Assembly (NCBI GenBank): GCA_903928685.1
Contig: CAIYRS010000070.1
Span: 1 to 52,862, forward strand
Reading direction: 5' to 3'
Source: an uncultured Methylococcaceae bacterium
GTDB taxonomy: Bacteria > Pseudomonadota > Gammaproteobacteria > Methylococcales > Methylomonadaceae
Length of the DNA: 52,862 bases
A program made the translations under genes and the position numbers. Positions within the stretch are counted from its first letter, which is position 1. Each line of letters opens with the position of its first letter. Below the pieces are notes generated by a model. It saw only the letters and a program-made list of their open reading frames with translations, was not told the DNA's origin and ran no database searches. Positions 9,965 through 51,104 of this stretch are shown here, one piece after another.

Positions 9965-10021
9965 CTTGGTTTGTAATAGCTTTTAATTTAATGGGGGACT
10001 TAAGGGGGGCATATCACTTAG

Positions 10022-16373: not shown

Positions 16374-16406
16374 AAAACAAAAAAGGCGTGAAATATTTCA
16401 CGCCTT
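16374..16406 (-). terminator. intrinsic terminator, copy 2 of a triplicated hairpin
   Basis: On the minus strand GGCGTGAAA, TA, TTTCACGCC is followed by a T-rich tract. It lies 50 bases upstream of the protease gene, so it would stop any leftward transcript entering from the early region. Confidence 0.8.
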
Positions 16407-24629: not shown

Positions 24630-25016
24630 ATGACTGATAAAAATACCAAAATTACTGAACGCCTTGTGATTGACGGCGCTATCCGGTTTGCCGGACGGAA
24701 GTTTAACCCACCGGAAATCGCCCCTTATAACAACAACTTTGTGCAGGTGGCATACATCACCTTTGTTGATGAATATATCCATATCCTTGATGCCGATAGC
24801 AACTTGATTGTTACTTGTAGTAACCGTGTTGATGCACCTGTTACTGCTGCGCTTCGGCCTGTAAAAGACGCTTGGGAAGATGAGGCGGTCAGGTTGCACA
24901 ATGCACCGCAAAAATTCTCTTTAGGTGGCATTGTCAATATTCTTCGGGATATTTATGGCGACAGTATTACTAAACGCCATGTTTATCAGCTATTCAGCGA
25001 TCGGGGGGTGATATGA
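24630..25016 (+). CDS. hypothetical protein between transposase and ATPase
   Basis: 128 residues from MTDKNTKITERLVIDGAIRF (24630); an earlier in-frame ATG at 24576 lacks a ribosome site. Beta-rich first half, then DAWEDEAVRLHNAPQKFSLG and a final helix pair. It overlaps the ATPase start by 4 bases. No family recognised; the position suggests a transposition accessory. Confidence 0.65.
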   Translation: MTDKNTKITERLVIDGAIRFAGRKFNPPEIAPYNNNFVQVAYITFVDEYIHILDADSNLIVTCSNRVDAPVTAALRPVKDAWEDEAVRLHNAPQKFSLGGIVNILRDIYGDSITKRHVYQLFSDRGVI

Positions 25017-25990
25017 GTATTGTCTTCACCTCCGCCTACAGCCCGGCTGATAAGGAAATGGTTGCCTATATTAATGCCTGGTTGGATAGCAACCCTGATT
25101 ACTCTAAAGCGGAGTTGTCACGGGTAACGACTATCAACGAAGGTACTCGCAGTTCTGTCTTAGGCGGTAAATACCCCAGTCCACCAACCGAATTCCTAGA
25201 GCGGATGAAGGCTGCGCTGGACATGATTGATGAGCGCAAAAATACGGTTATCCGCACTGAAATACCTTTTGTTAATACCAGCGTGACTGAAGATATTATC
25301 GGTTTGGCTGACCGTGCGCGGCTAGATAAAGATTTTGGTATGTATGTCGGGCGGGTGGGTATTGGCAAAACCGAGGGTTTACGCAATTACGTCAGGACCA
25401 ACAAGCGCTCAGCATTACTGATAGAAACCTTCGGCGGCATTGACCACCTGACCTTTTTACAGTTGCTGGCAAAGTCCGCAAAATTACTGACTAGCGAGAA
25501 AAAGGCATCGCCCTTGCTTTTGCAGTTGATCGAAAAGTTTCAAGGCACCGACCACATTTTGCTGATTGATGAGGCCGAAAACCTGAAAAAGGACAGCTTT
25601 GAAGCCTTGCGGCGTATTTCGGATAAGGCGGGTATTGGCGTGATGCTGGTCGGTACACTGAAATTATTGCCCTTGCTGCAAGACCCAGACGGCAAATTTG
25701 GGCAAGTCAGCAGCCGGATTGGTTTTTGGGGCGACCCTGTCTTTCAGATAACACCAGCCGATTGCAATGTATTGGTTAACAGTTACTTCGGAAAAAAAGT
25801 AAGTGACGATCTATTGACCGCATTTTACCAATGCAGCGAGGGCAGTGCCCGGACGCTAAAGTCGTTGATGAAAAAAACAGCACGGACAACTAACAAAAAG
25901 CAGCTTCAAATTACCGCTGAGCTGATTTATTCCATCAACGCCAGCACTTCAGCGGGGCGTAGTTACCGTGTTGTACCGGGAGGTATGTAA
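25013..25990 (+). CDS. MuB/TnsC-like AAA ATPase
   Basis: 325 residues. N-terminal 60 residues resemble a small HTH segment (SKAELSRVTTINEGTRSSVL). Walker A is GRVGIGKT at 113-120, Walker B HILLIDEAENL from 181, and a sensor-like LVGTLKLLP follows. MuB-type ATPases choose target DNA, stimulate the transposase and give target immunity. Immediate downstream placement relative to the transposase supports this. Confidence 0.92.
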   Translation: MSIVFTSAYSPADKEMVAYINAWLDSNPDYSKAELSRVTTINEGTRSSVLGGKYPSPPTEFLERMKAALDMIDERKNTVIRTEIPFVNTSVTEDIIGLADRARLDKDFGMYVGRVGIGKTEGLRNYVRTNKRSALLIETFGGIDHLTFLQLLAKSAKLLTSEKKASPLLLQLIEKFQGTDHILLIDEAENLKKDSFEALRRISDKAGIGVMLVGTLKLLPLLQDPDGKFGQVSSRIGFWGDPVFQITPADCNVLVNSYFGKKVSDDLLTAFYQCSEGSARTLKSLMKKTARTTNKKQLQITAELIYSINASTSAGRSYRVVPGGM

Positions 25991-28770: not shown

Positions 28771-28833
28771 TCATATTGAAATTAAATGGCAATAGGGTTA
28801 CATTGCCGCTGTAAAATCCTACTAAAAACAAAG

Positions 28834-28862
28834 GGCGTGAAACATTTCACGCCTTTTTTTTT
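28834..28862 (+). terminator. intrinsic terminator, copy 3 of a triplicated hairpin
   Basis: GGCGTGAAA, CA, TTTCACGCC and nine T, on the plus strand. It closes the early/mor transcript before the lysis genes. Same stem as copies 1 and 2, here in the opposite orientation. Confidence 0.92.
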
Positions 28863-28930
28863 ACCTGCCAAAAACGCATCCTAACCACTCATTAAGCTGA
28901 ATTAATTGCAATCAGTCTGGAGGTGGTTAT

Positions 28931-30299: not shown

Positions 30300-30799
30300 T
30301 GGCCCATTCGCCCGAAACTGTCCAAGCTGTACGCGGCTCTTACGTTTTTGAACGGTTGCCGCTACCTGTTGCTGCCATAAAACATGGGGTGAGCCAAGGC
30401 TCGGCTCAGGCGTGGAAAAAAAAGGCGTTGGACGCAGGTGATGACTGGGATCGGGCGCGGTCGGCGGCCTTAATGGCAGCAGGTGGTCTTGGGGATGCGA
30501 CTAACCAAATTTTAGAAGGCTTTACTCTACTTTTTCAAACGGCTATTCAAAAAGTACATGATGACAAAAAATTAAGCGCAGAAGACATGGTTGCATCATT
30601 GGCCAGGCTGTCTGATTCTTACGCAAAAATGCTGACATCAGCCGGGAAATCCAATCCAAAAATATCCAAATTAGCCATTGCAATGGAAGTGCTGAATGAA
30701 GAAGCCGTATTGATTAAAGCCGAGTTTCCTGATGATGTTGAGCGGTTTGCCAAAATACTTGACAGCCTTGGCCCACGGATTTGTGAGGTTTTCGGCTAA
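30299..30799 (+). CDS. DUF1804 protein (small terminase candidate)
   Basis: 166 residues: SPETVQAVRGSYVFERLPLP, VAAIKHGVSQGSAQAWKKKA (a helix-turn-helix-like segment), then a helical domain with AEDMVASLARLSDSYAKMLT. DUF1804 proteins (Mu gp27-like) directly precede the large terminase in Mu-like phages and probably recognise packaging DNA. It shares one base with the terminase start. Confidence 0.88.
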   Translation: MAHSPETVQAVRGSYVFERLPLPVAAIKHGVSQGSAQAWKKKALDAGDDWDRARSAALMAAGGLGDATNQILEGFTLLFQTAIQKVHDDKKLSAEDMVASLARLSDSYAKMLTSAGKSNPKISKLAIAMEVLNEEAVLIKAEFPDDVERFAKILDSLGPRICEVFG

Positions 30800-32502
30800 T
30801 GGCAACGCTATCTGAAAAGGAATTTTTAAAGGAGTTAAAAGCCCTTTCATCCGGCCTTCAAAAGGAGATTGATGCCTATAGCCTGGGCATCGACGCATCA
30901 CCTGCTGCCATTGCTGAACGCCGCAAGCGGGTGTTAATGGGCGATTTCAAATTCTTTGCTTACACCTATTTCCCGCACCACATCCGTGGTGAGCCTTCCT
31001 TCTTCCAAGCGCATTTTTGTGAACGTTTCCCCAAGCTGCTTAAGTTAAAAGGCTCACGCGACTGGTGGGTGGCCCCGCGTGGCGAAGCTAAATCTTCCTT
31101 ACTCACTAAGATTGGCCCGGTATGGTGTGCCGTACAAGGCTTGCTGGAAAAGCCGGATGTCCGCGCTGAAATTGGCTGGCAAGGTAATCCACCGCCATTT
31201 ATTGATTACATCATCTTACTGGGTGCTGAAACCAAGCTGCCGACTAAGCTGCTGGAAGTCATCAAGACCGAGCTGACAGTCAATGCCTCGCTTGCGCTGG
31301 ATTTTCCAGACGTGTGCGGCAAAACATCAAACTGGAAGGTCGGTGAGTTCATCACCAAAACCAATGTGAAAGTTGAACCGTTCGGGGCAGAACAGGCAAT
31401 CCGGGGGACATTCCACGGTTCGTCACGGCCTAAGCTGCTACTGGGCGATGACCTGATCACCGATGCCGAGGCGAAAAGCCCAACCGAGCGCGAAAACCGC
31501 TGGAACTGGCTGGAAAAGTCCATTGATTATCTAGGGCCGCCGGATGGCTCTGTCATTTATATGGGTGTTGGTACAGTGCTGAATAAGGATGATCCGATTT
31601 CCCGCGCTAAAAAGACTATTGGTCATCTAGTACATCACTTCAAGGCAATTGTCGAATTCCCCGTCAATTCTGACCTATGGGCGGAATGCGAAGAGCTGAT
31701 GCACAACAATGACCGCCGTGTTGAGCTGAAATATGCTGAAAAAGGCGAAGTGGCGGATATGGAAAAGCTGCCGTCGTATAAGTTTTACAAGAAAAATAAG
31801 AAGGCGATGGACAAGGGGGCGGTGGTGTCGTGGCCTTCGGTTCGGTCGCTGTTTGTGTTGATGAAAGCCAGGGCGAAAAGCCGCACGGCGTTTGCTACGG
31901 AAATGCAGGGCGACGCGCGGTCGGACGAGGACAAGGTGTTTACAGGTTTTCAAATCTGGGTGCAGAAACTGCCGCTGTGGCTGTATTTCGGGGCATGTGA
32001 CCCATCAATGGGCAAGGGCGAAAAATCCGACCCTAGCGCGATTGTCGCCGGGGGCTACAACACCGATACCCTTGAGCTGAATATTATGGTCGCTGAGCGC
32101 AAGCGCCGGACACCGAGCAAGCTAGTGGCTGATTTAATCAAAGTTCAACAGCTACTGAACTGCATGGCATGGGGCTTTGAGAACAACGGCGCGTTTGAGT
32201 TTATGCGGATGTCGTTCATCAACGAGGCCGCCCGTGCGGGTGTCATATTGCCCTTGGTGGGCGTGACTACCAGCCAGCCGCAAGAAGTTTTAATCCCGTC
32301 GCTTGAACCGATTATTTGTTCCAACCCGCCCAAAATATTGCTGGCTGCTAGTTTGACGCAATTGACGGACGAGCTGGATACCTTCCCTGAAAAACAGACC
32401 CACCACCATTACGACCTACTGTGTGCGCTGCATATTTTGTATGCCGTTGCTGTGTCTAGGGCGGGCGGGATTCCTAAGATTGTTACTCGGAAGCGAGGTT
32501 AA
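30799..32502 (+). CDS. terminase large subunit (Mu gp28-like)
   Basis: 567 residues. Packaging motor ATPase plus nuclease. ATPase region: WWVAPRGEAKSSLLTK at about 90-104 in place of a classical Walker A, LLLGDDLITDAEAKSPTERE near 213 (Walker B region). The nuclease domain begins near 393 (FGACDPSMGKGEKSDPSAIV), with the acidic residues expected in an RNase H fold. Length fits the family. Mu-type headful packaging into host DNA is expected. Confidence 0.95.
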   Translation: MATLSEKEFLKELKALSSGLQKEIDAYSLGIDASPAAIAERRKRVLMGDFKFFAYTYFPHHIRGEPSFFQAHFCERFPKLLKLKGSRDWWVAPRGEAKSSLLTKIGPVWCAVQGLLEKPDVRAEIGWQGNPPPFIDYIILLGAETKLPTKLLEVIKTELTVNASLALDFPDVCGKTSNWKVGEFITKTNVKVEPFGAEQAIRGTFHGSSRPKLLLGDDLITDAEAKSPTERENRWNWLEKSIDYLGPPDGSVIYMGVGTVLNKDDPISRAKKTIGHLVHHFKAIVEFPVNSDLWAECEELMHNNDRRVELKYAEKGEVADMEKLPSYKFYKKNKKAMDKGAVVSWPSVRSLFVLMKARAKSRTAFATEMQGDARSDEDKVFTGFQIWVQKLPLWLYFGACDPSMGKGEKSDPSAIVAGGYNTDTLELNIMVAERKRRTPSKLVADLIKVQQLLNCMAWGFENNGAFEFMRMSFINEAARAGVILPLVGVTTSQPQEVLIPSLEPIICSNPPKILLAASLTQLTDELDTFPEKQTHHHYDLLCALHILYAVAVSRAGGIPKIVTRKRG

Positions 32503-32897: not shown

Positions 32898-34442
32898 ATG
32901 ATTGATCAATTTAAAAAAGGCGTTAATAGCGTTAAAAAATTGTTATTAGGCAACCAGATTGCCACGCGCCATAACGACCCGAATTTTTATGCCGCCCTGC
33001 AAATGCTGCCGAATCCTGATGTGATTCTGCGGAAAATGGGTAAAAGCCAAGAAGTGTACGATGCCATTATTTTGGACGCGCATGTCATCGGCGAATTGCG
33101 ACCCATGCGGGCCAACATCATCACCAAGTCGTGGCGCATCACACCAGGCGGCGACAAGCCGGAAGACATCAAAGCGTTTGAGTTGGCACAAAAGATTTTT
33201 AGCCGCCCTCCCGTACCGACAACGCAGTCTTCGCCTGGGATGGGTTGGCCTGATGTATTTTGGAATATCCACGAGGCGATTTTACGCGGGCAACGTATCC
33301 ACGAAGTGGTATGGAACGTGGAAGATGGTTTGATGATACCGTCGCTATTGTTAGACCGTCCAAACCGCCGTTTTATTTATGGCTTGGAAAACGAACTGCG
33401 CTTGTTGACCCGCGACAATATGATCGAAGGGATTCCGGTCGACAATTACAAGTTTTTGGTCTCACGGCATATGCCGTCCTTTGATAACCCGTATGGCGTG
33501 GCGTTGTTGTCGGCCTGTTTTTGGCCTCATACCTTCAAGCATAACGGCTTTCGTTTTTTCGTTAAATTTTGTGAGAAGTACGGCATTCCGTGGGCAATCG
33601 GCAAGTATCCGGCAGGCACGGGCCAGGCGCAGATTGATGAGCTGGCGGACGGTTTGGCGGCTATGGTGGAAGATGCGATTGCTGCCATCCCTGACGCAGG
33701 GCAAGTGGAGCTGCTGGAGGCGGGATCAGCTGGTAGCCAGTTGCCGCAAGAAAGATTGATTCAAATCTGCAACTCGGAAATGAGCAAGGCCATTAACTCG
33801 CAGACGCTGGCTACTGAGATTAATGGGCAAGGCAGTCGGGCGGCAGCGGAAACGCATCGTGGACGCGAGCAGAATAATGGCGATGCAGACTGTAAGCTGG
33901 TCGAATCTACCATGTGCCAGATGTTGATTTGGACAACGGAGCTGAATTTTGCCGGAGCTGCCCCACCTAAGTTTGAGTTTTATGACGAGGCTGAGGCGCG
34001 GAAAGATTGGGTGGAGGTTTTTTCTGTTGCCCGTGATTTTATGGGGATACCAGAAAGTTTTGCCCATCAGCAAATGCAGATTCCACAAGCGAAGGATGGC
34101 GAGGCTGTATTACCCAAATCAACCGCGCCCGCTGCGCCTAAACCTGCTGCGCCGATGACCTTTAGCCGTGTTGATTTTTCGGCAGGGGCTGACCCATCGC
34201 CAGTATCTGATTATAGCCAGCAATTGGCAGTAATCGGTGATCCGCTGGTATCACAATGGATCGACATCCTGCGTAAAAAACTGGATGACGCGATTGCGCG
34301 GGGCGATAGTCTGGCTGATTTTCAAGCTGAACTTATTAAATCCTACGGTGATTTGCCGACTGATGAGCTGGTAACGATGATGGAGCTGGCTTTCTCTACG
34401 GCGGATTTGAAGGGGATTGTGGATGTGGAGCAGGGTAACTAA
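32898..34442 (+). CDS. portal protein (Mu gp29-like, DUF935)
   Basis: 514 residues. Landmarks of DUF935: DPNFYAALQMLPNPDVILRK, DAHVIGELRPMRANIITKSW, RGQRIHEVVWNVEDGLMIPS, PYGVALLSACFWPHTFKHNG and KYGIPWAIGKYPAGTGQ. The portal forms the dodecameric DNA gate at the head vertex. A Pro/Ala-rich stretch at about 393-415 separates the C-terminal region. Shares one base with the next gene. Confidence 0.95.
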   Translation: MIDQFKKGVNSVKKLLLGNQIATRHNDPNFYAALQMLPNPDVILRKMGKSQEVYDAIILDAHVIGELRPMRANIITKSWRITPGGDKPEDIKAFELAQKIFSRPPVPTTQSSPGMGWPDVFWNIHEAILRGQRIHEVVWNVEDGLMIPSLLLDRPNRRFIYGLENELRLLTRDNMIEGIPVDNYKFLVSRHMPSFDNPYGVALLSACFWPHTFKHNGFRFFVKFCEKYGIPWAIGKYPAGTGQAQIDELADGLAAMVEDAIAAIPDAGQVELLEAGSAGSQLPQERLIQICNSEMSKAINSQTLATEINGQGSRAAAETHRGREQNNGDADCKLVESTMCQMLIWTTELNFAGAAPPKFEFYDEAEARKDWVEVFSVARDFMGIPESFAHQQMQIPQAKDGEAVLPKSTAPAAPKPAAPMTFSRVDFSAGADPSPVSDYSQQLAVIGDPLVSQWIDILRKKLDDAIARGDSLADFQAELIKSYGDLPTDELVTMMELAFSTADLKGIVDVEQGN

Positions 34443-35692
34443 TGGGCGTTACCGTTTCCCAAGGCAGCATCACCAATCCGAATGATCGGTCGGGTTTTGT
34501 TGTCGCTTTTAAAGAACAGCAGGATTTTTTCTTACAAAAGGTCAATATCCCGACCGCGCGTTGGGATGACGTTAAGCTCGCTGCCCATGATAGGGGGTTT
34601 ATGGTGGCGGGGGCTGCCAAGGCTGATTTGCTGACCGATTTACGGGACGCCGTGGAAAAGGCAGTCATCAATGGCGACGGGCTGGATAAGTTTCGGGCGC
34701 GGTTTGATGAGATCGTGGCAAAACATGGCTGGGAGTATAAGGGCGGGCGGAATTGGCGGACGAATATCATTTACCAGACCAATATTTTGTCCAGCTATGC
34801 TGCGGGGCGTTATTCGCAGTTAACTGACCCTGATCTTCTGAAAAAGCGGCCTCTTTGGGTTTATCACCATAATGATTCAGTTCGCTATCCGCGACCTATC
34901 CACAAATCATGGGGAATGAAACCTGTGGTTTTGCGGTATGACCATCCTTGGTGGCAGACGCATTTTCCCCCTAATGGTTGGTTGTGCCATTGCTGGGTGT
35001 CGGCGGCGCGGGTGGGGCAATATCAGGAAACCGCCGCGCCGGATGATGGCACGTATGAGCATATCGACAAGCAAGGCAATGTGACGGTTTTGCCGAATGG
35101 TATTGATTACGGCTGGAATTACACGCCGGGGCGGACGTGGTCGCCGCAGGTGGATAAGTATCCGAACCCTATTGCCAAGGCCTTGGTGTCAGATTATGTG
35201 CAGGATGGCGTTTTGGTACGCTGGCATAACCGTTTGGCACGGCAGCTGGATGGCTGGAAGGCTTTACCGGAGTTTGCGGGTTTAAAAGGGGACGATTTGA
35301 TTGATGCGTTGCGTAAAGCAGGTGTTATCCCATTTGAGCAGCTGGTGGTAGGGGTTATTGCTGAGGAAATTAAGGCGTTGCTGGCCTCCAATAGCCAGGC
35401 GTTGATTTTGTCGGCGGATACGGTGGTCAAGCAGCTGGTGAAGCGTGAAGGCCAACCGATTGATGCCCAGACGTATGTTAATTTGCAGGCGGTGTTGGAC
35501 AGTGCTCAAGTCATTAAGCAGGTGGCTGATACCAAGGTGGCTTATTGGTATAAGGATGGCAAAATCTGGTATGCGGTGATAAAGACGACCGCAAATGGAG
35601 CGGAAAACTATTTGCTTTCGTTGCGACTGACAAGGCCAGCAGATTTAAAAAACACTTTATCCGCAGAGGAAAAAAGAAAACTAGGTATTTAA
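34442..35692 (+). CDS. Mu F-like head morphogenesis protein (gp30)
   Basis: 416 residues. N-terminal MuF domain at about 70-200: RWDDVKLAAHDRGFMVAGAA, RTNIIYQTNILSSYAAGRYS, ending CHCWVSAARVGQY with the PPNGWLCHC cysteine motif. MuF proteins are minor head proteins, often injected. The C-terminal 100 residues (QTYVNLQAVLDSAQVIKQVA then VAYWYKDGKIWYAVIKTTAN) resemble toxin-like domains of the PBECR group sometimes fused to MuF; this part is tentative. Confidence 0.9.
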   Translation: MGVTVSQGSITNPNDRSGFVVAFKEQQDFFLQKVNIPTARWDDVKLAAHDRGFMVAGAAKADLLTDLRDAVEKAVINGDGLDKFRARFDEIVAKHGWEYKGGRNWRTNIIYQTNILSSYAAGRYSQLTDPDLLKKRPLWVYHHNDSVRYPRPIHKSWGMKPVVLRYDHPWWQTHFPPNGWLCHCWVSAARVGQYQETAAPDDGTYEHIDKQGNVTVLPNGIDYGWNYTPGRTWSPQVDKYPNPIAKALVSDYVQDGVLVRWHNRLARQLDGWKALPEFAGLKGDDLIDALRKAGVIPFEQLVVGVIAEEIKALLASNSQALILSADTVVKQLVKREGQPIDAQTYVNLQAVLDSAQVIKQVADTKVAYWYKDGKIWYAVIKTTANGAENYLLSLRLTRPADLKNTLSAEEKRKLGI

Positions 35693-35856: not shown

Positions 35857-36315
35857 ATGTTTCTCATGTTAAATCTTTCAATTATCCGTAACACCGGACA
35901 AATCACGCGGCGGCTTCAGGAAGTCTTGGACAGGACGGAGGATTTGCGGCCTTTGTTATTGGATATTGGGGAAGATTTGGCGTTATCGACCAAGCAACGG
36001 TTTACGACACTGAAAGACCCGGATGGCTTTGAGTGGCAAGCAAATAGCGAGTTGGTGATTCAGCGAAAAGGCCATGATATTCCGTTGACGGGTAAAACTC
36101 GCGACCTGCAACACACTATCGTATCTCAGTTACGTGGCAGTACGGGGGTTGAGATAGGTAGCCCGCTGGCATATAGCGTGGTGCAGCAGTTTGGTGGTTT
36201 GTCTTACTGGCAAGAATATCAGGAATGGTGGCGTGTACCACCCCGTAATTTTGTGGGGATGTCGGATGATGATGCCCGTCATATCTTGCATTTGACGGAA
36301 GTTTATTTGATTTAA
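35857..36315 (+). CDS. phage virion morphogenesis protein (Mu G-like)
   Basis: 152 residues. LDRTEDLRPLLLDIGEDLAL, PDGFEWQANSELVIQRKGHD, PLTGKTRDLQHTIVSQLRGS and VVQQFGG match the Mu G-type tail completion/virion morphogenesis family. In Mu it follows F and is needed for tail joining. The start could be 35857 or the nearby ATG at 35866 (MLNLSIIRNTG). It is the last structural gene before the right end here. Confidence 0.85.
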   Translation: MFLMLNLSIIRNTGQITRRLQEVLDRTEDLRPLLLDIGEDLALSTKQRFTTLKDPDGFEWQANSELVIQRKGHDIPLTGKTRDLQHTIVSQLRGSTGVEIGSPLAYSVVQQFGGLSYWQEYQEWWRVPPRNFVGMSDDDARHILHLTEVYLI

Positions 36316-36513: not shown

Positions 36514-37287
36514 ATGATTAAAAGTCCATTGTCCGGCTGGGTAGGCGGCAAGTTTCAGTTATCTAAGCAGATTGTTTCGATGATTCCAGAGCATGAGTGT
36601 TATTGCGAACCATTTTCTGGGGCAGCTTGGGTGTTTTTTAGAAAACCACGTTCAAAAGTGGAGGTTTTGAACGATATTAATACCGATATCATTACTTTGT
36701 ATCGCGTGATTCAGCATCATTTTGAAGAGTTCATGCGGTATTTTAAGTGGGCGTTGGTCAGCCGGGATGAGTTTGAACGGCAACTCAAAACAAAACCGGA
36801 AACATTGACGGATATCCAGCGGGCAGTCAGGTTTTTTTATCTGCAAAAAAGCTCGTTTGGTGGGCATATCGATCATCCGACGTTTGGCTATGCGCCATCC
36901 GCAACGCCCAGACTGAATTTGTTGAGGATTGAAGAGGATTTGTCGATGGCGCATTTAAGGCTATCACAGGTCTATGTGGAAAACTTAGGGTATTCGGATT
37001 TAATCAGGCGATATGACCGTGATTACGCTTTTTTCTATATTGATCCGCCGTATTGGAATTGTGAGGATTATTACGGTGACGGTATTTTTTCTAAGGCGGA
37101 TTTTGATGCGTTGGCAGTGCAACTAGGGGCTATAAAAGGGAAGTTTTTGCTAAGCTTGAACGATACGCCGGAAGTTAGGGCTATTTTTTCGGGGTTTATT
37201 ATTGATCCTGTTTCGGTTACCTATTCTTGTGGCAAAACAAAGTCTAAAGCTAAAGAGGTTTTAATAAGAAATTACGAATTAGCTTAA
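36514..37287 (+). CDS. D12-class adenine-N6 DNA methyltransferase
   Basis: 257 residues. SAM-binding motif region SGWVGGKFQLSKQIVSMIPE (residues 7-26) and YCEPFSGAAWVFF, catalytic DPPY at 177-180 (YIDPPYWNCEDYYG). Such enzymes methylate adenine, often in GATC-like sites. The gene is the last of the phage, at the right end where Mu keeps mom, so it probably protects phage DNA from host restriction. Confidence 0.92.
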   Translation: MIKSPLSGWVGGKFQLSKQIVSMIPEHECYCEPFSGAAWVFFRKPRSKVEVLNDINTDIITLYRVIQHHFEEFMRYFKWALVSRDEFERQLKTKPETLTDIQRAVRFFYLQKSSFGGHIDHPTFGYAPSATPRLNLLRIEEDLSMAHLRLSQVYVENLGYSDLIRRYDRDYAFFYIDPPYWNCEDYYGDGIFSKADFDALAVQLGAIKGKFLLSLNDTPEVRAIFSGFIIDPVSVTYSCGKTKSKAKEVLIRNYELA

Positions 37288-37336: not shown

Positions 37337-37394
37337 TCACCTATTTTTTACTGGTAAAAAGTATTTTTTTGTTAATTCTTTCGCAAATTAAACA

Positions 37395-37457
37395 GTTTTA
37401 TATTTTGGTTTTATTTCTGTAAATAACTGATTATTAAAATCAATTTAGTTTATCTTG
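37395..37457. repeat. short direct repeats near the phage right terminus
   Basis: GTTTTATATTTTG (37395-37407) and GTTTTATTTCTG (37408-37419) lie back to back, with GTTTATCTTG at 37448-37457. Repeated transposase-binding sites near the ends are expected in Mu-like phages; these are candidates only. Confidence 0.4.
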
Positions 37458-37955
37458 TTTCTTATATCTAATGTCTCCCCACAGGAAAATCGTTCCGGTT
37501 TCGTTGTTTGCCCACATCACCGAAACGATGGCGACTTGGTCGGACAGCAATTTTTTATAAGCTTCGATATTTAAACGACCAATCTTGTCCACGGGCATCC
37601 GGTGGACGGTGTAGCCGTCTTTTTCTAAAGAGTCGCACAGGCTTAAAATGGCCGGATGCTCAACCGTTGTAGTAATGATTTCTTTACGGTTGGGTTGGGT
37701 TTTCAACGCCGACAGAATCGCTGTGGAATTGGATTCCGTACCGCAAGAGGTGAAAATAATTTCCGAATCGTGTTCTGCACCGATCAAGTTTTGCACTTGT
37801 TGGCGGGCTTGTTTGATGCCGCGCGCCACACCGTCGGCAAATTTGTGGATGGACGACGGATTGCCGTATTGTTCGAGGAAATACGGAATCATGGTATCAA
37901 CCACGGCACGGTCAACTTTGGTGGTGGCGTTGTTGTCGAGATAAATGTCGGTCAT
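37440..37955 (-). pseudogene. nifS: nifS cysteine desulfurase, interrupted by the prophage
   Basis: Starts MTDIYLDNNATTKVDRAVVD and runs as a normal NifS through WANNETGTIF (157 codons). It then changes to 14 phage-coded residues (LWGDIRYKKQDKLN) and a TGA at 37440. NifS normally has about 400 residues. The missing part would carry the PLP-binding lysine and catalytic cysteine that supply sulfur for NifU. NNxTGT, a conserved early motif, is intact. The remainder should lie left of the prophage. Another desulfurase (IscS) may replace it. Confidence 0.93.
37482..37488. other. phage right terminus and one target-site copy
   Basis: CA at 37482-37483 is the terminal dinucleotide. GGAAA at 37484-37488 (plus strand) is host sequence and, for a Mu-type 5-bp duplication, should be repeated just outside the left end. 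Confidence 0.7.
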
Positions 37956-37975: not shown

Positions 37976-38110
37976 GTAGGATGGGCTGACGTAAGGAAGC
38001 CCATCATTTGGCTGTTGTCGCCGTAGGATGTACCCAAGGTCATAAAGGCTGTCGTAAAAAAACATCGCGCTACAAATATTGATGGGCTTCCTATCGTCAG
38101 CCCATCCTAC
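37976..38110. repeat. palindromic intergenic repeat (GTAGGATGGGCT type)
   Basis: GTAGGATGGGCTGACG at 37976 is mirrored by a CGTCAGCCCATCCTAC at 38095-38110, between nifU and nifS. The same arms occur at 40615-40688. The inner part is longer here. Confidence 0.85.
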
Positions 38111-39016
38111 TTAAGCAGCGGCGATATTGACCAATTTGGACATTTCCGAAGCGGGTACGACTTTTATAAACTCGCCCATCACTTCCATCAGCCGTTGTTG
38201 GATACCGGCAATCGTCATCGCCGCCATTTGGCAGCCGTTACACGCGCCGGACATATTCACATAAGCGGTGTTGCCGATCACTTCGACCAACTCGACATCA
38301 CCTCCGTCCGCCATTAATGCAGGCCGTAACGATTCCAAGACTTCTTCAATTTTTTTGATGCGTTGTAAATTGGTCAACGGGCCTTTCACTTCGGCGACTG
38401 CCGCTTTTTTAGTGACTGCTGGCGCTTCGGGATCAAATTTCTCGCCTTTTTCCGCCAAAACTTTTTCCAAAATCGCTTCAATGTCTTCATGGCAAGATGC
38501 GCAACCGCCGCCCGCTTTGGTGAAGTTAGTGACGTCTTCAACGGTACGCAGCTTATTCGCCCAGACCATTTCCTCGATCATCACCGCATCAATCGCAAAA
38601 CATTTACAGATCAACGCGCCTTCTTCGTGGTCGTCGACCCATTCTTCGCCGCGATAATTGGCAATCGCCGCTTGCAAAGCTTCGCGCCCCATCACCGAAC
38701 AGTGCATTTTTTCCGGTGGCAAACCTTCCAAATGATCGGCAATGTCTTGGTTGGTGACTTTTAAGGCTTCGTCGATGGTCATGCCTTTGATGATTTCGGT
38801 CAGTACCGAAGACGAGGCAATCGCTGAACCGCAACCGAAGGTTTGGAAGCCAGCATCTAAAATCACTTCGCTGTCGTCATCGACTTTTAAGGTCAAGCGC
38901 AAGGCATCGCCGCAACTGATCGAACCCACTTCGCCGATGGCATTGGCATCCGCCACTGCACCCGCGTTTTTGGGATTAAAAAAATGTTCTTTTACTTTGT
39001 CTGAATAGTCCCACAT
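38111..39016 (-). CDS. nifU: NifU iron-sulfur cluster scaffold
   Basis: 301 residues from [20 protein letters not shown] (39016). Three domains as in diazotroph NifU: N-terminal scaffold with Cys in [28 protein letters not shown] and MHCSVMG; central [2Fe-2S] domain with ICKCFAIDA and [13 protein letters not shown]-terminal Nfu domain with [14 protein letters not shown]. It builds clusters for nitrogenase from NifS sulfur. It follows the A-type carrier and precedes nifS. Confidence 0.96.
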
Positions 39017-39044
39017 GGTGGTGTCCTCGAAATTGGCTATATTT

Positions 39045-39118
39045 GTAGGTTGGGTTAAGCGATAGCCGCAACCCAACAAATTCGTGCGGTCAATGTTGGG
39101 TTACGCTATCGCTAACCA
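39045..39118. repeat. palindromic intergenic repeat (GTAGGTTGGGTTA type)
   Basis: GTAGGTTGGGTTAAGCGATAGC is mirrored by GCTATCGCTAACC near 39106-39118, with CAACCCAAC/ATGTTGGGTT inside. Same family as 45440-45510. Confidence 0.8.
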
Positions 39119-40017: not shown

Positions 40018-40596
40018 TTATTCTTCCGCCCCGAAACACTTCGGGTAATCAATACAAACCTCGCAAGACGGCGCACGGCAAACGTAAATACCTTCGGCTT
40101 CGCACAATTGTTTGTAGATAAATTTTTTCCATTTCATGTCCTTGTCGTTTTTAACGGCGAGGGCAGGGAAGTTGTGGTTTAGCATGGCGCTGAGTTGCGC
40201 GCGAGACCATAAACCCAAATCTTGCCAAAGATGATCGCTCCCTAAACAACCCGCAACGATGATGGCGATCATCCAGTCGGTTTCCTGCACGTCTGGGTTG
40301 GCGTGGTTTTGCAGCAACCTGACCAAATCCTCTTTTTCTAACATGCGGCTGTAGTCTAATTGGCTGCCGGAAACCGCTAAAGTGGGTAAGTCGGCATGGG
40401 GAAATAAACGGGCTTGTAGTTGGCTAAATTGAGCAGGTTCTAAGCCGAGAAAATCAGGTAAAACACCTTCGCCGACTTGCCAACTGGCGAGCATACAGGC
40501 CAACCATTCATGATTGGGTGAGCGGATGCCGGGCGCGCTAAGCCGTTCATAAACTGCCGAACGCGAGTCTTGCTGAAATTTTGGCAATGCGGACAT
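40018..40596 (-). CDS. nifQ: NifQ, molybdenum donor for FeMo-co
   Basis: 192 residues from MSALPKFQQDSRSAVYERLS (40596). The C-terminal cysteine motif C-x4-C-x2-C-x5-C (CRAPSCEVCIDYPKC) and LDYSRMLEKEDLVRLL-type helical domain identify NifQ, an Fe-S protein that supplies molybdenum. Last gene of the nifB operon, 190 bases after the ferredoxin, with a palindromic repeat between. Confidence 0.9.
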   Translation of the reverse strand: MSALPKFQQDSRSAVYERLSAPGIRSPNHEWLACMLASWQVGEGVLPDFLGLEPAQFSQLQARLFPHADLPTLAVSGSQLDYSRMLEKEDLVRLLQNHANPDVQETDWMIAIIVAGCLGSDHLWQDLGLWSRAQLSAMLNHNFPALAVKNDKDMKWKKFIYKQLCEAEGIYVCRAPSCEVCIDYPKCFGAEE

Positions 40597-40614
40597 GAGC
40601 AACCTCACAGCACG

Positions 40615-40688
40615 GTAGGATGGGCTGACGATAGGAAGCCCATCAAACTAATTAACCCGATGGGCTTCCTATCGTCAGCCCATCCTAC
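40615..40688. repeat. palindromic intergenic repeat (GTAGGATGGGCT type)
   Basis: GTAGGATGGGCTGACGATAG is mirrored by CTATCGTCAGCCCATCCTAC, with GAAGCCCATC/GATGGGCTTC between. Located between nifQ and the upstream ferredoxin. Confidence 0.9.
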
Positions 40689-40783
40689 ATTTTGGTGTCG
40701 TAATGTGAAACACAACCTCTAATCGATTCCGTTCGTGCTGAGCACGTCGAAGCATGATCGGAATCGATTAGTTCAGCACTTTC

Positions 40784-41134
40784 TTAATATTCAACCAAAA
40801 TATCTTCATCACGGACGATCATTTGGCAAGCCAAGCGCCAGGGTGGCGGTAAATCGTCAACAATCACTTGTTCCATTTCTTCTTTGCTGATTTTTCCGCA
40901 TTGGCGCAGCACGGCTTTTTCTTTTTCCGTCAAGGTGCCGCCCATACGTTCGAGTTTTTTATCAACGCTGCTGACTTTCACCAAGCACGTGCCGCATTCG
41001 CCGTCTTCGCATTCAAAATTGATGGGAATTTTGTTTTCGCGGGCGAGTTTCAGTAAGGTTTGCGTGTGGCTGCCTGCGACAGCGTAAACAGTTTTGTCTT
41101 TGTATTCGGGGTTTGAAAAGGTGACTAAGGCCAT
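40784..41134 (-). CDS. [2Fe-2S] plant-type ferredoxin
   Basis: 116 residues. Cluster-binding CEDGECGTCLVKV (C-x4-C-x2-C) and the distal WRLACQMIV cysteine. Soluble electron carrier; the nif setting suggests a role near nitrogenase or NifB. AGGAGCC ribosome site upstream. It follows a second ferredoxin gene by 23 bases. Confidence 0.93.
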   Translation of the reverse strand: MALVTFSNPEYKDKTVYAVAGSHTQTLLKLARENKIPINFECEDGECGTCLVKVSSVDKKLERMGGTLTEKEKAVLRQCGKISKEEMEQVIVDDLPPPWRLACQMIVRDEDILVEY

Positions 41135-41156
41135 GATTGGCTCCTGTTAATTATTA

Positions 41157-41584
<428 letters not shown>

Positions 41585-41599
41585 TAGCGTAAATCCGAA

Positions 41600-42904
41600 C
41601 TACGCCAAATCCGCCATATCAATAACCTTGCTTTGCCGCAAGCCGACCAATTCCTGCGCCAGTTCAAGACCAAAATCATGGCACAAAGCAATCTCTTCTT
41701 CCGTCGGAATCAGCTTAATCCGCAAACCCTGCACGGGCACGCGCAGCTTTAAGCCGCGCAGACGGTCTTCCACCATCCGCACGGCTTCGCCCGTCCAGCC
41801 GTAAGAGCCGAAAACGCCGCCGACTTTGGATTTGAGATTAATCACCGCCAAGGACGACAACAAATCCCACACGGGTTTGACGGCATCGCCATTAATCGTC
41901 GGTGTACCAAACACAATACCGTCCGCGCCTTCAATCAAATCCACAAACGGCTCTAACTCGCTGCCTTCCAAGTCGTACAGCGACACGCGCACTTGCTCGA
42001 CCGCCATTGCGCCTTCGTAAATCGCCTCCGCCATGCGCCGGGTGTTGCCGTAAGAGCTGATGTAAAAAATCAGCAGGGTTTTCTCGTCATCGTCCTTGTC
42101 GTTGTGCAAGGCCGCGCGCGACAATTCGCGGTAGCGGCGCACGTAACGATGTGGACGGTCGCGTAATAGCGGCCCGTGCGCTGGGGCGATGTTTTCCAGC
42201 GGCAATAACGGCTCTATCAAATCCAACGCACGGTTCACGTAGTCCTTAAACGGACGCATGATGTGCGCGTAGTAGTATTCAAACGAAAACCTAAAATCGC
42301 CGACTTGGTCGTTAAACAAGCGGCTATCGCAAAAATGACAGCCGAACACGTCGCCAGAAAACAACGTGTGTTCTTCCGGTAAATAAGTGCATTGGGTATC
42401 CGGCCAGTGCAGATACGGCGTGTGTAAAAATTGCAGCGTCCTATCGCCTAGCGATACGCTGTCGCCCGTCAGTACGGGGGTAAATGCCAAATCTTCTTGC
42501 TTAAGCAAAGCTTTCAGCATGGTTTGCGCTTTTTGCGAAATATACAGCCGCGCTTGTGGCGCTCGGCGCATCAACTCCGGCAACGCGCCCGTGTGGTCGG
42601 GTTCGAGATGGTTCAGGACGATGACGCTGATTTCGTCGTAACGCGCCACGGTTTCCAAACGCGCGAAAAAATCGCCGGCGAAACTTTCTTTCACCGTGTC
42701 GATTACCGCTACGCCTGCACTGCCACGTACCAGATACGCGTTATAACTGGTGCCGTTGGCGGTTTTTAAAATGATGTCGAACGTCCGCAGGTTAGGGTCG
42801 AGTGCGCCTATCCAATGCACCCGCTCCGACAAGGCTACGGCCTGCGGGATGCCTTCGTTAATTAATAGCGGCGGCTTAACCATGACCGCAGCTTGCTTGG
42901 GCAA
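41600..42904 (-). CDS. flavodiiron protein (A-type flavoprotein)
   Basis: 434 residues. N-terminal metallo-beta-lactamase-fold domain with diiron ligands visible in NHLEPDHTGALPEL, SGDVFGCHFCDSR and APAHGPLL; C-terminal flavodoxin domain from about residue 270 (TLLIFYISSYGNTRRMAEAI, FGTPTINGDAVKPVWDLL). Such enzymes reduce O2 or NO to harmless products, which would protect nitrogenase. It overlaps the ArsC-like gene by 29 bases, inside the nifB operon. Confidence 0.93.
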   Translation of the reverse strand: MPKQAAVMVKPPLLINEGIPQAVALSERVHWIGALDPNLRTFDIILKTANGTSYNAYLVRGSAGVAVIDTVKESFAGDFFARLETVARYDEISVIVLNHLEPDHTGALPELMRRAPQARLYISQKAQTMLKALLKQEDLAFTPVLTGDSVSLGDRTLQFLHTPYLHWPDTQCTYLPEEHTLFSGDVFGCHFCDSRLFNDQVGDFRFSFEYYYAHIMRPFKDYVNRALDLIEPLLPLENIAPAHGPLLRDRPHRYVRRYRELSRAALHNDKDDDEKTLLIFYISSYGNTRRMAEAIYEGAMAVEQVRVSLYDLEGSELEPFVDLIEGADGIVFGTPTINGDAVKPVWDLLSSLAVINLKSKVGGVFGSYGWTGEAVRMVEDRLRGLKLRVPVQGLRIKLIPTEEEIALCHDFGLELAQELVGLRQSKVIDMADLA

Positions 42905-43587: not shown

Positions 43588-43615
43588 GTCGGACTCCTTT
43601 AGTGCCGTTTATATA

Positions 43616-43728
43616 GTTCCCACGCTCTGCGTGGGAATTCATCCTGCAACGCTCCGGCGTTGCGTGACACGAAACATTACGCAACGCTGGAGCGTTGCTT
43701 ACGGCATTCCCACGCAGAGCATGGGAAC
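43616..43728. repeat. compound palindromic repeat (CCCACGCTCTGCGTGGG type)
   Basis: TTCCCACGCTCTGCGTGGGAA and TTCCCACGCAGAGCATGGGAA flank CAACGCTCCGGCGTTGCGT and ACGCAACGCTGGAGCGTTGC. Same family as 47656-47751. Confidence 0.9.
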
Positions 43729-43787
43729 GATGAAAACGATAAAATTTTTCGTGTTTTTTCGTGCCTTTCGTGGACAAAATTTAGCTG

Positions 43788-45278
43788 TTAAGCACTCGCC
43801 CGCATCGCTTCAGGCTTAGCATCCAACTTGCCCGCTGACGCCATTTCCTTGTAAACCGCCATGACTGCTTCTTCGATAGGCTCCATCGCATGTTCGCCAT
43901 TCGGAATGATGCTCGCCGCTTCCAGCAAGTCCCAAGGCTCGTAGCCAATTTTCGAACACAACACCGCTTCACAACCTGCCAAAGCGCGGACAGTTTGTTG
44001 CAACACGCTTTCGCCATCGCCGCAAGTGCTGTCACCGCCACAATATTGGTCGGCTTTACGGTGGCTGATGAAACGCACGCCGTCTGGTGAAGCTTCGTAA
44101 ATCAAAAATTCTTTGGCGTGACCGAAGTGGACGTTGATTAAGCCTTGGCCTAAAGTCGCCACCGCCATCAACACCGGGCGGGTTGTCAATTTGGCTTCCG
44201 CTTTAAATTGTTCAGCCTTTTGCGCTTTTTCCAAACGCTTGCTATCCATCTCGGCTTGAATAGCGGTGTGGATCACTTTGCGTTTTTCCATCGCCGCTTG
44301 GTAATCAATTTCCATTTCTTCGATTTTATCGATGGTGAATTCATCACCACGATCTTCACCGAGCAAGCCCACCGCATCGGCACGGCATTGGCGGCAATGG
44401 CGCATCATGTTCATGTCGCCGGAGCAAGCGTCTTGCAAATCTTGCAATTCATCCGGCGTTGGCCCGCGTTGTCCCATCACACCGAAGAAGGTACCGTGTT
44501 CGGCTTCAGCAATTAGCGGCATCACATTGTGCAAAAACGCGCCTTTGGATTTGACCACGCGGCTAACTTCCGCCAAATGTTGGTCGTTAATGCCCGGAAT
44601 CATCACCGAGTTGACTTTGACCAAAATGCCCTTGGCAATCAGCATTTCCAAGCCTTTTTGTTGCTGTTCAATCAAAATCTTGGCGGCTTTTTTGCCTTTA
44701 ATGCGTTTGTTGTTCCAGAAAATCCACGGATAAATCTTCGCGCCGATTTCGGGGTCAACACAGTTGATGGTGATGGTGACGTGGTCTATGTTATGTTTCG
44801 ACAACTCTTCGACCGCATCCGGCAAAGCCAAACCATTGGTGGAAACGCACAGTTTGATGTCCGGTGCTTCCTCACTTAAACGGCGGAAAGTTTCGAAAGT
44901 ACGTTCAGGATTGGCTAACGGATCGCCTGGGCCGGCGATGCCTAATACCGTCATTTGCGGAATGGTCGCTGCGACTGCCATGGTTTTTTTAACCGCTTGA
45001 TCGGGCGTCAATAATTCGGAAACCACGCCAGGGCGAGATTCATTAGAACAATCGTATTTGCGGTTGCAATAATGGCATTGGATGTTACACGCAGGAGCGA
45101 CAGCGACGTGCATACGCGCGAAGTAGTGATGCGCGTCTTCCGAGTAACAGGGATGGTTCTGGACTTTTTCCCGAATCGAATCGGGTAAAGCATCCATTTG
45201 ATTTTCGGTGGAACCGCAGGAGCTGGTAGAGCAGCCACTTTTTGCCGCAGGGGCTTCGTTTAAGACGGGCAGTTGCAT
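43788..45278 (-). CDS. nifB: NifB, radical SAM FeMo-co core synthase
   Basis: 496 residues. Makes NifB-co, the 8Fe-9S-carbide precursor. Radical SAM motif C64-x3-C68-x2-C71 (ACNIQCHYC), then NRKYDCSNESRPGV, GIAGPGDPLANPE and NPSI-like downstream motifs; extra cluster cysteines in MRHCRQCRADAVGLLGED. Residues about 375-480 form a fused NifX-like domain (VNVHFGHAKEFLIY-type pattern, GGDSTCGDGES). First gene of the leftward operon, 39 bases from a -24/-12 element. Confidence 0.97.
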   Translation of the reverse strand: MQLPVLNEAPAAKSGCSTSSCGSTENQMDALPDSIREKVQNHPCYSEDAHHYFARMHVAVAPACNIQCHYCNRKYDCSNESRPGVVSELLTPDQAVKKTMAVAATIPQMTVLGIAGPGDPLANPERTFETFRRLSEEAPDIKLCVSTNGLALPDAVEELSKHNIDHVTITINCVDPEIGAKIYPWIFWNNKRIKGKKAAKILIEQQQKGLEMLIAKGILVKVNSVMIPGINDQHLAEVSRVVKSKGAFLHNVMPLIAEAEHGTFFGVMGQRGPTPDELQDLQDACSGDMNMMRHCRQCRADAVGLLGEDRGDEFTIDKIEEMEIDYQAAMEKRKVIHTAIQAEMDSKRLEKAQKAEQFKAEAKLTTRPVLMAVATLGQGLINVHFGHAKEFLIYEASPDGVRFISHRKADQYCGGDSTCGDGESVLQQTVRALAGCEAVLCSKIGYEPWDLLEAASIIPNGEHAMEPIEEAVMAVYKEMASAGKLDAKPEAMRASA

Positions 45279-45784: not shown

Positions 45785-47173
45785 ATGACCGAAATTCTCA
45801 AACGCAATAAAGCCTTATCGGTAAACCCGCTCAAAGCCAGCCAACCCACAGGCGGTACTTTGGCGACGCTAGGCTTCAACCGCGCCATGCCCATGTTGCA
45901 CGGCTCTCAAGGCTGCACGGCGTTTGCGAAAGTTTTCTTCGTCCGTCATTTCCGCGAACCGATTCCGTTGCAAAGTACCGCGATGGATCAGGCGAGTTCG
46001 GTGTTGGGTGCGGATGAAAATGTCCGCGAAGGCATCCGCGTCATCGCTGAAAAATCCCGCCCTGCCTTGATTACCATTTTGACCACAGGACTTGCCGAAA
46101 CCCAAGGCGCAGACGTGCATCGCAATGTGCGTGAATTCCGCGAAGCCAATCCTGAATATGCCGATGTCGCCGTCGTTGCTGTCAACACGCCGGATTTTAC
46201 CGGCAGTGTCGAAACAGGTTATGCCGCGACTTTGACCGAAATTATCCGCGCCTTAGTGCCAGATGCCAAAGAAGCGGGGACGTTTCCAGGCAAACGGAAA
46301 AGGCAAGTCAATGTGCTGGTGAGTTACATGCTTACTCCCGGCGATTTGGAAGCTTTGCGCGATTTATTCGAACAATTCCAACTTCGCCCTGTGTTCGTTC
46401 CGGATTTGTCGGATTCCTTAGACGGTTGTTTGACGGATGACGATTTCAGTCCGGTCACCATCGGCGGTACGCTCATTTCCGAAATGGCGACTTTGGGTGA
46501 CTCCTTAGCCACTGTGGTTATCGGCTCTTCGCTACAAAAACCCGCCGAATTGCTGGAGCAAAAAACGGGCGTAAAAACCTATTCCCTAGACCATCTTTAT
46601 GGCTTGAAAGCCAACGATGCTTTGATTTGCGCCTTGGCGGAAATCAGCGGCAACGACGTGCCAGAACGCATCGAACGCCAGCGTCGGCAATTGCAAGATG
46701 CCATGCTCGACACCCATTTTATGCTCGGACAGTTGCGTGTCGCCATCGCCGCCGATGCGGATTTGCTCGCTGCCTTTGTTGCCTTGTTGCAAGAAATGGG
46801 CGCAGACATTGTCGCGGCGGTCACTTCCTGCAACACGCCATCACTTGCCAATATTCCCGTCGCCAGCATCAAAATCGGTGATTTGGAAGACATGGAAAAC
46901 ATCGGTCGCGCTAACAAAGTCCAATTGGTGATCGGGAATTCCCATGCCGTCGATACCGCTGAACGTTTTGGTACGCCAATTTTGCGGGCGGGTTTTCCTT
47001 TGTACGACATCATCGGCGGCTACCAAAAAACTTGGATTGGTTATCGCGGTACACGCCAAACGCTGTTCGATTTGGCGAATCTGGTCATCAATTATTCGCA
47101 CGAAGAAATCCCCGTTTACCATTCGATTTACGGGCAAAAACCCGCCAACGAACAGGCCAAATCATGTCATTGA
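45785..47173 (+). CDS. nifN: NifN, FeMo-co assembly scaffold subunit
   Basis: 462 residues. NifK-like fold: KALSVNPLKASQPTGGTLAT, MPMLHGSQGCTAFAKVFFVR, TTGLAETQGADV and VNTPDFTGSVETGYAATLTE are NifN landmarks, including the cluster-binding Cys in GSQGC. It pairs with NifE to form the scaffold on which NifB-co matures. Here nifE is not next to it but lies 2.5 kb away on the other strand. AGGTGG ribosome site; overlaps nifX by 10 bases. Confidence 0.96.
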   Translation: MTEILKRNKALSVNPLKASQPTGGTLATLGFNRAMPMLHGSQGCTAFAKVFFVRHFREPIPLQSTAMDQASSVLGADENVREGIRVIAEKSRPALITILTTGLAETQGADVHRNVREFREANPEYADVAVVAVNTPDFTGSVETGYAATLTEIIRALVPDAKEAGTFPGKRKRQVNVLVSYMLTPGDLEALRDLFEQFQLRPVFVPDLSDSLDGCLTDDDFSPVTIGGTLISEMATLGDSLATVVIGSSLQKPAELLEQKTGVKTYSLDHLYGLKANDALICALAEISGNDVPERIERQRRQLQDAMLDTHFMLGQLRVAIAADADLLAAFVALLQEMGADIVAAVTSCNTPSLANIPVASIKIGDLEDMENIGRANKVQLVIGNSHAVDTAERFGTPILRAGFPLYDIIGGYQKTWIGYRGTRQTLFDLANLVINYSHEEIPVYHSIYGQKPANEQAKSCH

Positions 47174-47649: not shown

Positions 47650-47655
47650 GCCCAT

Positions 47656-47751
47656 AGTTCCCACGCTCTGCGTGGGAATTCATCTTGCAACGCTCCGGCG
47701 TTGCGTGACGCAGAGCGTCACAGGCGGCATTCCCACGCAGAGCGTGGGAAC
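47656..47751. repeat. compound palindromic repeat (CCCACGCTCTGCGTGGG type)
   Basis: Second copy of the family at 43616-43728, between nifX and the DUF269 gene; the inner hairpin is shorter. Confidence 0.9.
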
Positions 47752-47785
47752 GATAAAACATTAAAAAATTTAAACGGAGAAACCC

Positions 47786-49673: not shown

Positions 49674-51050
49674 TTAAGCCGCTACTTTCCAAGGCGCAGG
49701 CGCTCGTACCGCTTCCCACACCGGACTCTCAATCGTCAAAGCCAATTGCCTGACCAATTCCAGCATCCCTTGATAACCTTCATAACCAAATTCGCGTTCT
49801 TGGTTAATGTCCAAAAACGGGATTTTCGCTTTCAAAGCCGTGTACATATTGCGGCCTCCGGCGATCAAAATATCGGCTTTATAATCGTGGACGACTTTTA
49901 GCAAAGCTTTCGGGCTGCCGTCGTTAATCATCAGGGTATCTTCGCCCATCAGTTCGCGTATACGGGCTTTGTCTTCCTCGGTGGATTTATTCGTACCCGT
50001 GGCGACCACCACCATACCTAAATCCTGCAACGCAGAAATCACCGACCAGCTTTTTACCCCGCCTGTGAACAACAACACGCGCTTGCCTTTCAGTCGAGCT
50101 TTCCAAGGTTCCAAAGCGGCGCGGATGCGGGCTTCTTCGCGGGCAACCAGGGCTTCGGTACGGGCGGTCAAATCGTCATCATTTAAGGCTTTGGCGAAAT
50201 CGCGCAAGGCCAAGCTGGTGTCGGTGATGCCGTAAAAACTGCCTTCAAACCACGGGGTTTTGTATTTTTGCTGCAATTTGCGGGCGACATTCACCATCGC
50301 TTTCGAACAAACCATCATATTCACTTCGGCTTTGTGCATGGTCTGCACTTCGCGGAAACGCGCGTCGCCGGATAAAGTGCATAACACTCGCAAACCCAAT
50401 TCATCCAGCAACGGCAAGACATGCCAAAATTCGCCTGCGATGTTGTATTCGCCGACTAAGTTCACATCGTGGATTTTGATCGGGCTGTTTTCGGGAAGCG
50501 GATCAGGATCGCGTGTACCAATCACATGATTGACCATCGCTTCGCCAGCAATGCGGTTGCCCAAGTTTTTTGTGCCATAAAATCCGGCACAATCAATCGG
50601 CACAACGGGTACGCCCCAATGTTCCTCAGCAGATTTGCACACAGCGTTGATGTCGTCGCCAATCAAGGCTGGAACGCAGGTGTTGTAGACAAATACGGCA
50701 GGTGGAGAGTAGGTTTCGATAGCTTGTTTGATGGCATGGAACAAGCGTTTTTCGGCACGGCCCATGACAATGTCTTGCTCGGTCAAATCGGTGGTCATGC
50801 CGATGCGGTATAAATCCGCGCCGGACGAGCGAGTGCCTCGGTTGTCCCAAGAACTGCCTGCACAAGCGATAGGCCCGTGGACGATATGCGCGACATCGGC
50901 TATCGGCAATAAGGCAATCTGTGCGCCATCAAACGCGCAACCACCCGCCGCCGAACCGGGTTTAGGTTTAGCGCAACCGGATTTTTCCTTTTTGTTATGC
51001 TCGCAAGCAGGTTCGTCGAGCAAAGCGGCAATGTCTTTGGTGGTTTTCAT
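49674..51050 (-). CDS. nifE: NifE, FeMo-co assembly scaffold subunit
   Basis: 458 residues from [20 protein letters not shown] (51050); an upstream ATG at 51092 overlaps the promoter and is rejected. [55 protein letters not shown] and [20 protein letters not shown] are NifE landmarks, with cluster cysteines in CAFDG and GPIACAG. It forms the NifEN scaffold with NifN. Alone on this strand, which is unusual because nifE and nifN normally form one operon. Confidence 0.96.
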
Positions 51051-51087
51051 GGCGTTGATCCATTGACTGTGACTGTAAAAAATCATC

Positions 51088-51104
51088 AGCAAATATTACG
51101 CCAA
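51088..51104 (-). promoter_or_regulatory. sigma-54 promoter for nifE
   Basis: Minus strand reads TTGGCGTAATATTTGCT: -24/-12 spacing kept; the -24 box has CG in place of CA. The nifE ATG is 38 bases downstream. Confidence 0.8.

Follow-up and report, generated by a model that had tools for sequence, protein, structure and literature searches.

The nifS gene of this genome is cut after 157 codons by the right end of a Mu-like prophage of about 39.5 kb, and the DNA flanking the prophage suggests that a single copy probably bridges two non-adjacent chromosomal places at a rearrangement junction, formed either by an adjacent deletion or by an inversion followed by loss. The window, i.e. the whole stretch of 52,862 nucleotides analyzed, is the entire contig C70 of the assembly (G000), which comprises 3.38 Mb in 117 contigs and is 99.1% complete. 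Coordinates without a contig name refer to the window.

Truncation of nifS

Starting at 37955 on the minus strand, the NifS reading frame is normal through codon 157, up to NNETGTIF, and then enters phage DNA. The 5′ part of the gene spans 37484–37955 (minus strand; 157 codons plus one base), the junction with the prophage end lies at 37483/37484, and the truncated, fused open reading frame (37440–37955, minus strand) encodes 171 amino acids, 157 of NifS and 14 derived from phage DNA. The first-pass annotation had described a NifS that is normal to this motif and then meets a phage terminus at 37483, and both the reading of the ORF and a phage end shared with a viral contig (L048, see below) bear this out. 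NCBIfam model TIGR03402 (NifS) covers residues 4–157 only, corresponding to profile positions 1–153 of 379.

Of 40 relatives compared, 18 (among them 15 of the 19 congeners) have a nifS that is 83–92% identical over all 157 codons; its frame is open for at least 405 codons in 17 of these 18 and reaches a contig edge in the other. Identity is 73% in a more distant relative (G034); one congener (G015) has a fragmentary match that contains a stop, and three others (G002, G012 and G013) have distant desulfurases only. We also compared named GTDB loci: a relative is encoded at 583 of them, and the 80 best were used. Among these 80, 75 are full length and have both the SGHK (K202) and S(G/S)SAC (C325) motifs, at exactly positions 202 and 325 in 64 of the 75; five reach a sequence edge, and a nifS cut by a stop is found in none.

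The roles of the PLP lysine and the active cysteine are well established for the NifS family, and the truncated ORF ends before both K202 and C325, as had been noted at first pass. Because these two residues are missing, no desulfurase activity is possible, and we predict that the truncated product cannot act as a desulfurase and that no functional NifS is made. The truncated allele would appear to dominate in the population, because the contig is unbroken at 37483 and many cells with an intact nifS should break it there.

The right end of the prophage

The right end is defined by comparison with IMG/VR contig L048, which encodes a portal protein 68% identical to that of the prophage and whose ORF order fits portal, MuF, MuG and dam, as judged by size and position. 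L048 matches the window up to a terminal AATGTCTCCCCACA, with unrelated DNA beyond, and because the similarity stops there we place the terminus at 37483 (37466–37483; TGTGGGGAGACATTAGAT on the minus strand). Of seven motif loci, one, on the L048 contig, is a phage terminus and the other six look like chance occurrences. Contig G011:C129, with a portal that is 74% identical, does not show this phage end. A putative transposase site, TTAATTTGCGAA, lies near the right end at 37380–37391 (minus strand), and this sequence occurs three times in the 3.38 Mb, all at the two phage ends, twice at the left and once at the right. It is the placement of these copies and not their number that carries weight, since a control search with the 12-base motif reversed gives two matches in the genome as well.

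The left end and the contig join

The window opens inside a phage tail gene (phrog_6079) that contains an in-frame 165-base tandem repeat (1–297), and the contig breaks here. Within this repeat, positions 1–139 overlap the right end of contig C93, the terminal 139 bases of which are identical letter for letter. When the genome is searched with positions 1–1100, the last 0.2 kb of C93 is the sole other strong match, all others having E values of at least 0.27, and the tail-gene frames on the two contigs are in register, 58 codons apart by arithmetic. The join of C93 and C70 at the tandem repeat is made through this one overlap and not from reads. Joined in this way, the prophage totals 39,496 bases, its right and main part occupying 1–37483 and its left 2.15 kb lying at C93:41907–44058.

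Beyond the overlap, C93 carries the remainder of the tail gene as well as, beside the left end, a phrog_5076 gene of 85 aa. The probable left end, at C93:41907, reads TGTTGCGGAACGC and then TTAATTTGCGAAAAAATAA; 22 bases further along lies a second TTAATTTGCGAA. It begins with TG and has TTAATTTGCGAAAAAATAA at a 13-base offset, and the L048 terminus has TTAATATGCGAAGAAATAA at an equal offset; the prophage termini are of the form TG...CA, the right end being common to L048 and the left being placed by the motif offset. Putative transposase sites are at offsets 13 and 35 on the left, and the one on the right is inverted and at offset 92; at offset 13 of the right end no putative site matching 12 or more of 19 positions was found. 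Tail-protein searches for relatives of the left end returned 0, 1 and 7 loci. A phrog_5076 look-alike follows the tail gene in five of seven IMG/VR relatives, and in L180 only a dam gene lies between it and the last 0.4 kb of the contig; in three of the five (L175, L176 and L178) further genes follow, so that it is not always the last gene. The gap at offset 13 of the right end and the extra genes in these three relatives count against C93:41907 as the left end, which is nonetheless well supported.

A second candidate end at C93:40482, suggested by a tandem GTGAGATATTTGGCGG repeat, is not borne out: the 12 other loci with this motif look like chance matches in coding sequence, and a host gene possibly extends into the repeat. 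Even a terminus at C93:40482 would leave the conclusion unchanged, as it would again be flanked by a pentamer other than GGAAA and would again lie at queC/tRNA-Lys.

To the left of the phage there is a stretch of about 1.4 kb (C93, about 40480–41906) that resembles mobile-element DNA and has a 404-aa ORF, followed by tRNA-Lys and a gene that we take from its sequence to be queC-like. The 404-aa ORF has a weak match to phage head-decoration proteins and matches four phage records over 13% of its length, and no relative was found in viral contigs. In 10 tRNA-Lys loci of relatives, similarity ends at about C93:40475, and the 1.4 kb stretch is unmatched. The tRNA-Lys gene looks like an insertion hotspot, because in several relatives it is followed by foreign-looking ORFs, some of them presumably integrase-like. 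Integrase-like ORFs are found beside tRNA-Lys on G011:C80 and G010:C267, and in G011 a second copy of the tRNA end lies about 10 kb away, likely marking an integrated element.

Gene content and organization of the prophage

The initial assignment of the element as Mu-like agrees with PHROG matches to transposase A (22841–24562, plus strand; phrog_310, E 2e-86), the DNA transposition protein B (25013–25990, plus strand; phrog_296) and a Mu-type set of head genes. The latter comprises the terminase large subunit (30799–32502; phrog_38), portal protein (32898–34442; phrog_113), MuF-like minor head protein (34442–35692; phrog_220) and a MuG-like tail completion or Neck1 protein (35857–36315; phrog_26), all on the plus strand, together with the head maturation protease (15145–16323; phrog_976) and major head protein (14226–15173; phrog_1005) on the minus strand. 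Also on the minus strand are the tail tape measure protein gene (6296–9889; phrog_339) and an HTH repressor-type regulator (18755–19258; phrog_8), and a DNA adenine methyltransferase gene identified by a profile match (36514–37287, plus strand) adjoins the right end. The major tail protein matches phrog_807, and there is no tail sheath among the prophage proteins scanned.

The protease, head and tail genes run leftward from 16.3 kb, the repressor is central, and the transposase, terminase, portal and MuF genes run rightward to the nifS end. This split of the head module need not be an assembly fault, because Burkholderia phage KS10 and Curvibacter phage TJ1 show the same split. Three similar hairpins (GGCGTGAAANNTTTCACGCC) lie between phage gene blocks at 9934–9984, 16376–16426 and 28825–28875, and are possibly terminators or a phage regulatory repeat.

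The missing 3′ half of nifS and the number of prophage copies

If the prophage had simply inserted into nifS, the 3′ part of the gene, preceded by GGAAA, should adjoin the phage left end, as the first-pass annotation had anticipated. GGAAA is the pentamer outside the right terminus (37484–37488, plus strand), but outside the left terminus C93 has ATTCA instead, with the tRNA-Lys/queC locus farther out. The flanking pentamers are thus unlike, with no matching 5-base target duplication, and in this assembly no nifS 3′ part lies to the left of the prophage, which speaks against simple insertion. Nor was the 3′ half (245 codons) found elsewhere in the assembly using the C-terminal part of a relative's NifS at E values up to 10; this 245-aa query finds only the IscS-like (40%) and SufS (32%) genes described below. 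A 191-aa gene adjoins the 3′ side of nifS in two relatives (G018 and G009), and no ortholog of the G018 gene was found in the genome by a search run without a positive control. G018 is the one relative seen to be colinear with the nif side through nifN, the stretches available from several other relatives being too short.

No second copy of the phage was found in the genome by portal, transposase or end motif. The portal has one match, and the Mu-type transposase has one strong match and three weak ones (E 3e-7 to 7e-5), which by eye sit among IS-like ORFs.

Origin of the junction

A single prophage is taken to bridge two loci because its flanks differ, one copy is seen and no 3′ half of nifS was found. 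Intrachromosomal transposition of a Mu-type element produces either an adjacent deletion or an inversion, and a deletion leaves one copy with the old flank on one side and the new flank on the other. The phage would initially have inserted near tRNA-Lys. Later, by replicative transposition, one of its ends would have attacked nifS elsewhere in that chromosome, giving an adjacent deletion, or else an inversion from which the second copy of the phage was subsequently lost together with the 3′ half of nifS. C70 and C93 extend 15 kb and 42 kb beyond the phage ends, lengths of host DNA that seem too great to have been packaged in virions. More weight falls on the unlike loci than on the unlike pentamers, because no direct repeats were found around integrated KS10 either (PMC2628397).

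Some observations sit less easily with this reading. In a congener assembled as one contig (G019), the minus strand carries queC–tRNA-Lys at 3.9 kb and, far from it, nifS at 865 kb. With this gene order, which is the congener's and may not be that of the present species, the junction is an inversion-type one and no deletion of a plausible size could have formed it, which argues against a plain deletion; an inversion followed by loss may have occurred instead. Furthermore, nifV is beside nifS in some relatives, yet has been kept on contig C50 here, which counts against the proposed rearrangement. In an assembly of 117 contigs, a short contig carrying the nifS 3′ part could have been dropped.

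The gene order of G019, and the inversions that intramolecular transposition of Mu-type elements yields, would also suit an inversion that left two phage copies, the other copy, joined to the nifS 3′ half, having gone missing during assembly or binning. We consider this unlikely: with two identical 39 kb copies, contigs should end at each phage terminus, yet neither terminus is broken, while there is a single set of end motifs and the 3′ part of nifS was not found. An artifact is a more improbable source of the pattern. C70 ends within a 165-base tandem repeat, a typical place for an assembly to break, and a false join there could conceal a simple insertion in nifS whose true left flank, with the nifS 3′ part, is unassembled; however, C93 is the only contig found to match the left end of the window strongly, the frames match, C93 itself bears a phage left end, and the searches gave neither another portal nor another strong Mu-type transposase that could belong to a second prophage.

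If related prophages had occupied both nifS and the tRNA-Lys region, homologous recombination between them would likewise fuse the outer flanks around one hybrid copy, and the hotspot-like appearance of tRNA-Lys in relatives favors this route; but it requires two insertions, the second copy has left no trace, and we give it only a very small chance. Least credible, to the point of near implausibility, is a developmentally excised element, a notion raised at first pass by analogy with the nif elements of cyanobacteria, in which nitrogen fixation would depend on loss of the prophage from some cells. A gene interrupted by a mobile element does fit that picture, but the 3′ half of nifS is missing at the other end, the flanks and their pentamers are unlike, and among the ORFs scanned the genes for transposition are of the Mu A and B type, which is not known for programmed precise excision. 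Since the 3′ half of nifS is absent from the other side of the phage, excision of the prophage would not rebuild the gene. We favor one prophage at a rearrangement junction as the probable explanation.

Nitrogen fixation genes and alternative desulfurases

Just upstream of the truncated nifS, nifU is full length (38111–39079, minus strand; TIGR02000, 470 bits), as are nifB (43788–45278, minus strand; TIGR01290), nifN (45785–47173, plus strand; TIGR01285) and nifE (49674–51092, minus strand; TIGR01283). Contig C50 has full-length nifD and nifK ORFs that match the whole PF00148 profile, adjoined by a nifH-like ORF of 294 aa that we take to be nifH, and also a nifV homologue with cysE- and nifW-like neighbors, which shows 87% identity over the 70 aa compared and has an open frame spanning 482 codons. 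An open frame is present for each of the core nif genes examined (H, D, K, E, N, B, U and V), and the view that the remaining nif genes are intact holds for those checked, which sit in full-length frames. Two families of REP-like palindromic repeats (GTAGGATGGGCTGACG... and TTCCCACGCTCTGCGTGGGAA) are located between nif genes, at 37976–38110, 40615–40693, 43606–43738 and 47654–47771.

The genome encodes further desulfurases, IscS-like and SufS, in line with the suggestion that iscS or a second nifS be sought; an intact second nifS was not found by a search with the NifS C-terminal part, nor among the four of seven class-V aminotransferase matches in the genome that were examined. These seven include the nifS fragment, the IscS-like protein and SufS. 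The IscS-like protein (369 aa, with the active-site motifs) is encoded on C56 between IscR- and IscA-like genes, and SufS is encoded on C47. The best NCBIfam match of the IscS-like protein is NifS, with 403 bits against a cut-off of 531; IscR (203 of 208 bits) and IscA (147 of 151) are just below their cut-offs, and SufS (615, cut-off 475) is above. The iscR-iscS-iscA-like group lies at C56:2059–4011, and neither of the genome's two PF01592 matches is a separate IscU, the only NifU_N-type scaffolds found being NifU and a 167-aa protein that is presumably SufU-like. The fourth of the aminotransferase matches, C53:21828, was considered as a second nifS and rejected, since its sequence looks like that of a phosphoserine aminotransferase, as which we provisionally regard it.

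The default expectation is that nitrogen fixation is lost or strongly reduced. Judging from the genes present, any remaining nitrogenase activity would have to rely on the IscS-like enzyme or on SufS as the desulfurase that serves NifU. That a free-living diazotroph population without NifS still fixes nitrogen, with the IscS-like enzyme of the iscR-iscS-iscA-like group serving NifU, is a tentative and rather doubtful proposal.

Comparison with known systems

The excisable nif elements of cyanobacteria are likewise mobile elements that interrupt a nif gene. They keep both gene halves, direct repeats and a site-specific recombinase, and in contrast the other half of nifS and matching repeats are not found here. 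A further parallel is gene disruption by Mu with an adjacent deletion or inversion, which also leaves one element with an old and a new flank and no matching target duplication, although the event at nifS is deduced from one assembly and not observed.

Among phages, the portal proteins of KS10 and TJ1 are 37–38% identical to that of this prophage. All three have terminase, portal and MuF at one genome end, apart from the protease, head and tail genes, with regulatory and transposition genes separating the two head blocks. There are also differences: the transposase genes are co-directional with terminase in this prophage and run in the opposite direction in KS10 and TJ1, and those phages possess a tail sheath, in place of which the prophage scan gave the major tail protein already noted. 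The published description of KS10 gives two putative transposase sites at each end, and TG...CA termini such as those of this prophage are absent from KS10 (PMC2628397).

No title or abstract opening among the literature matches listed concerns a prophage inside nifS. Truncation of nifS by this prophage is a further example of a process already known, with a Mu-like phage of KS10-like layout located at a probable chromosomal rearrangement junction, and it cautions that a prophage-interrupted gene need not be restorable. With core nif genes that otherwise look complete, this methanotroph relative is a naturally occurring nifS knockout in which one can ask whether a housekeeping desulfurase is able to feed NifU.
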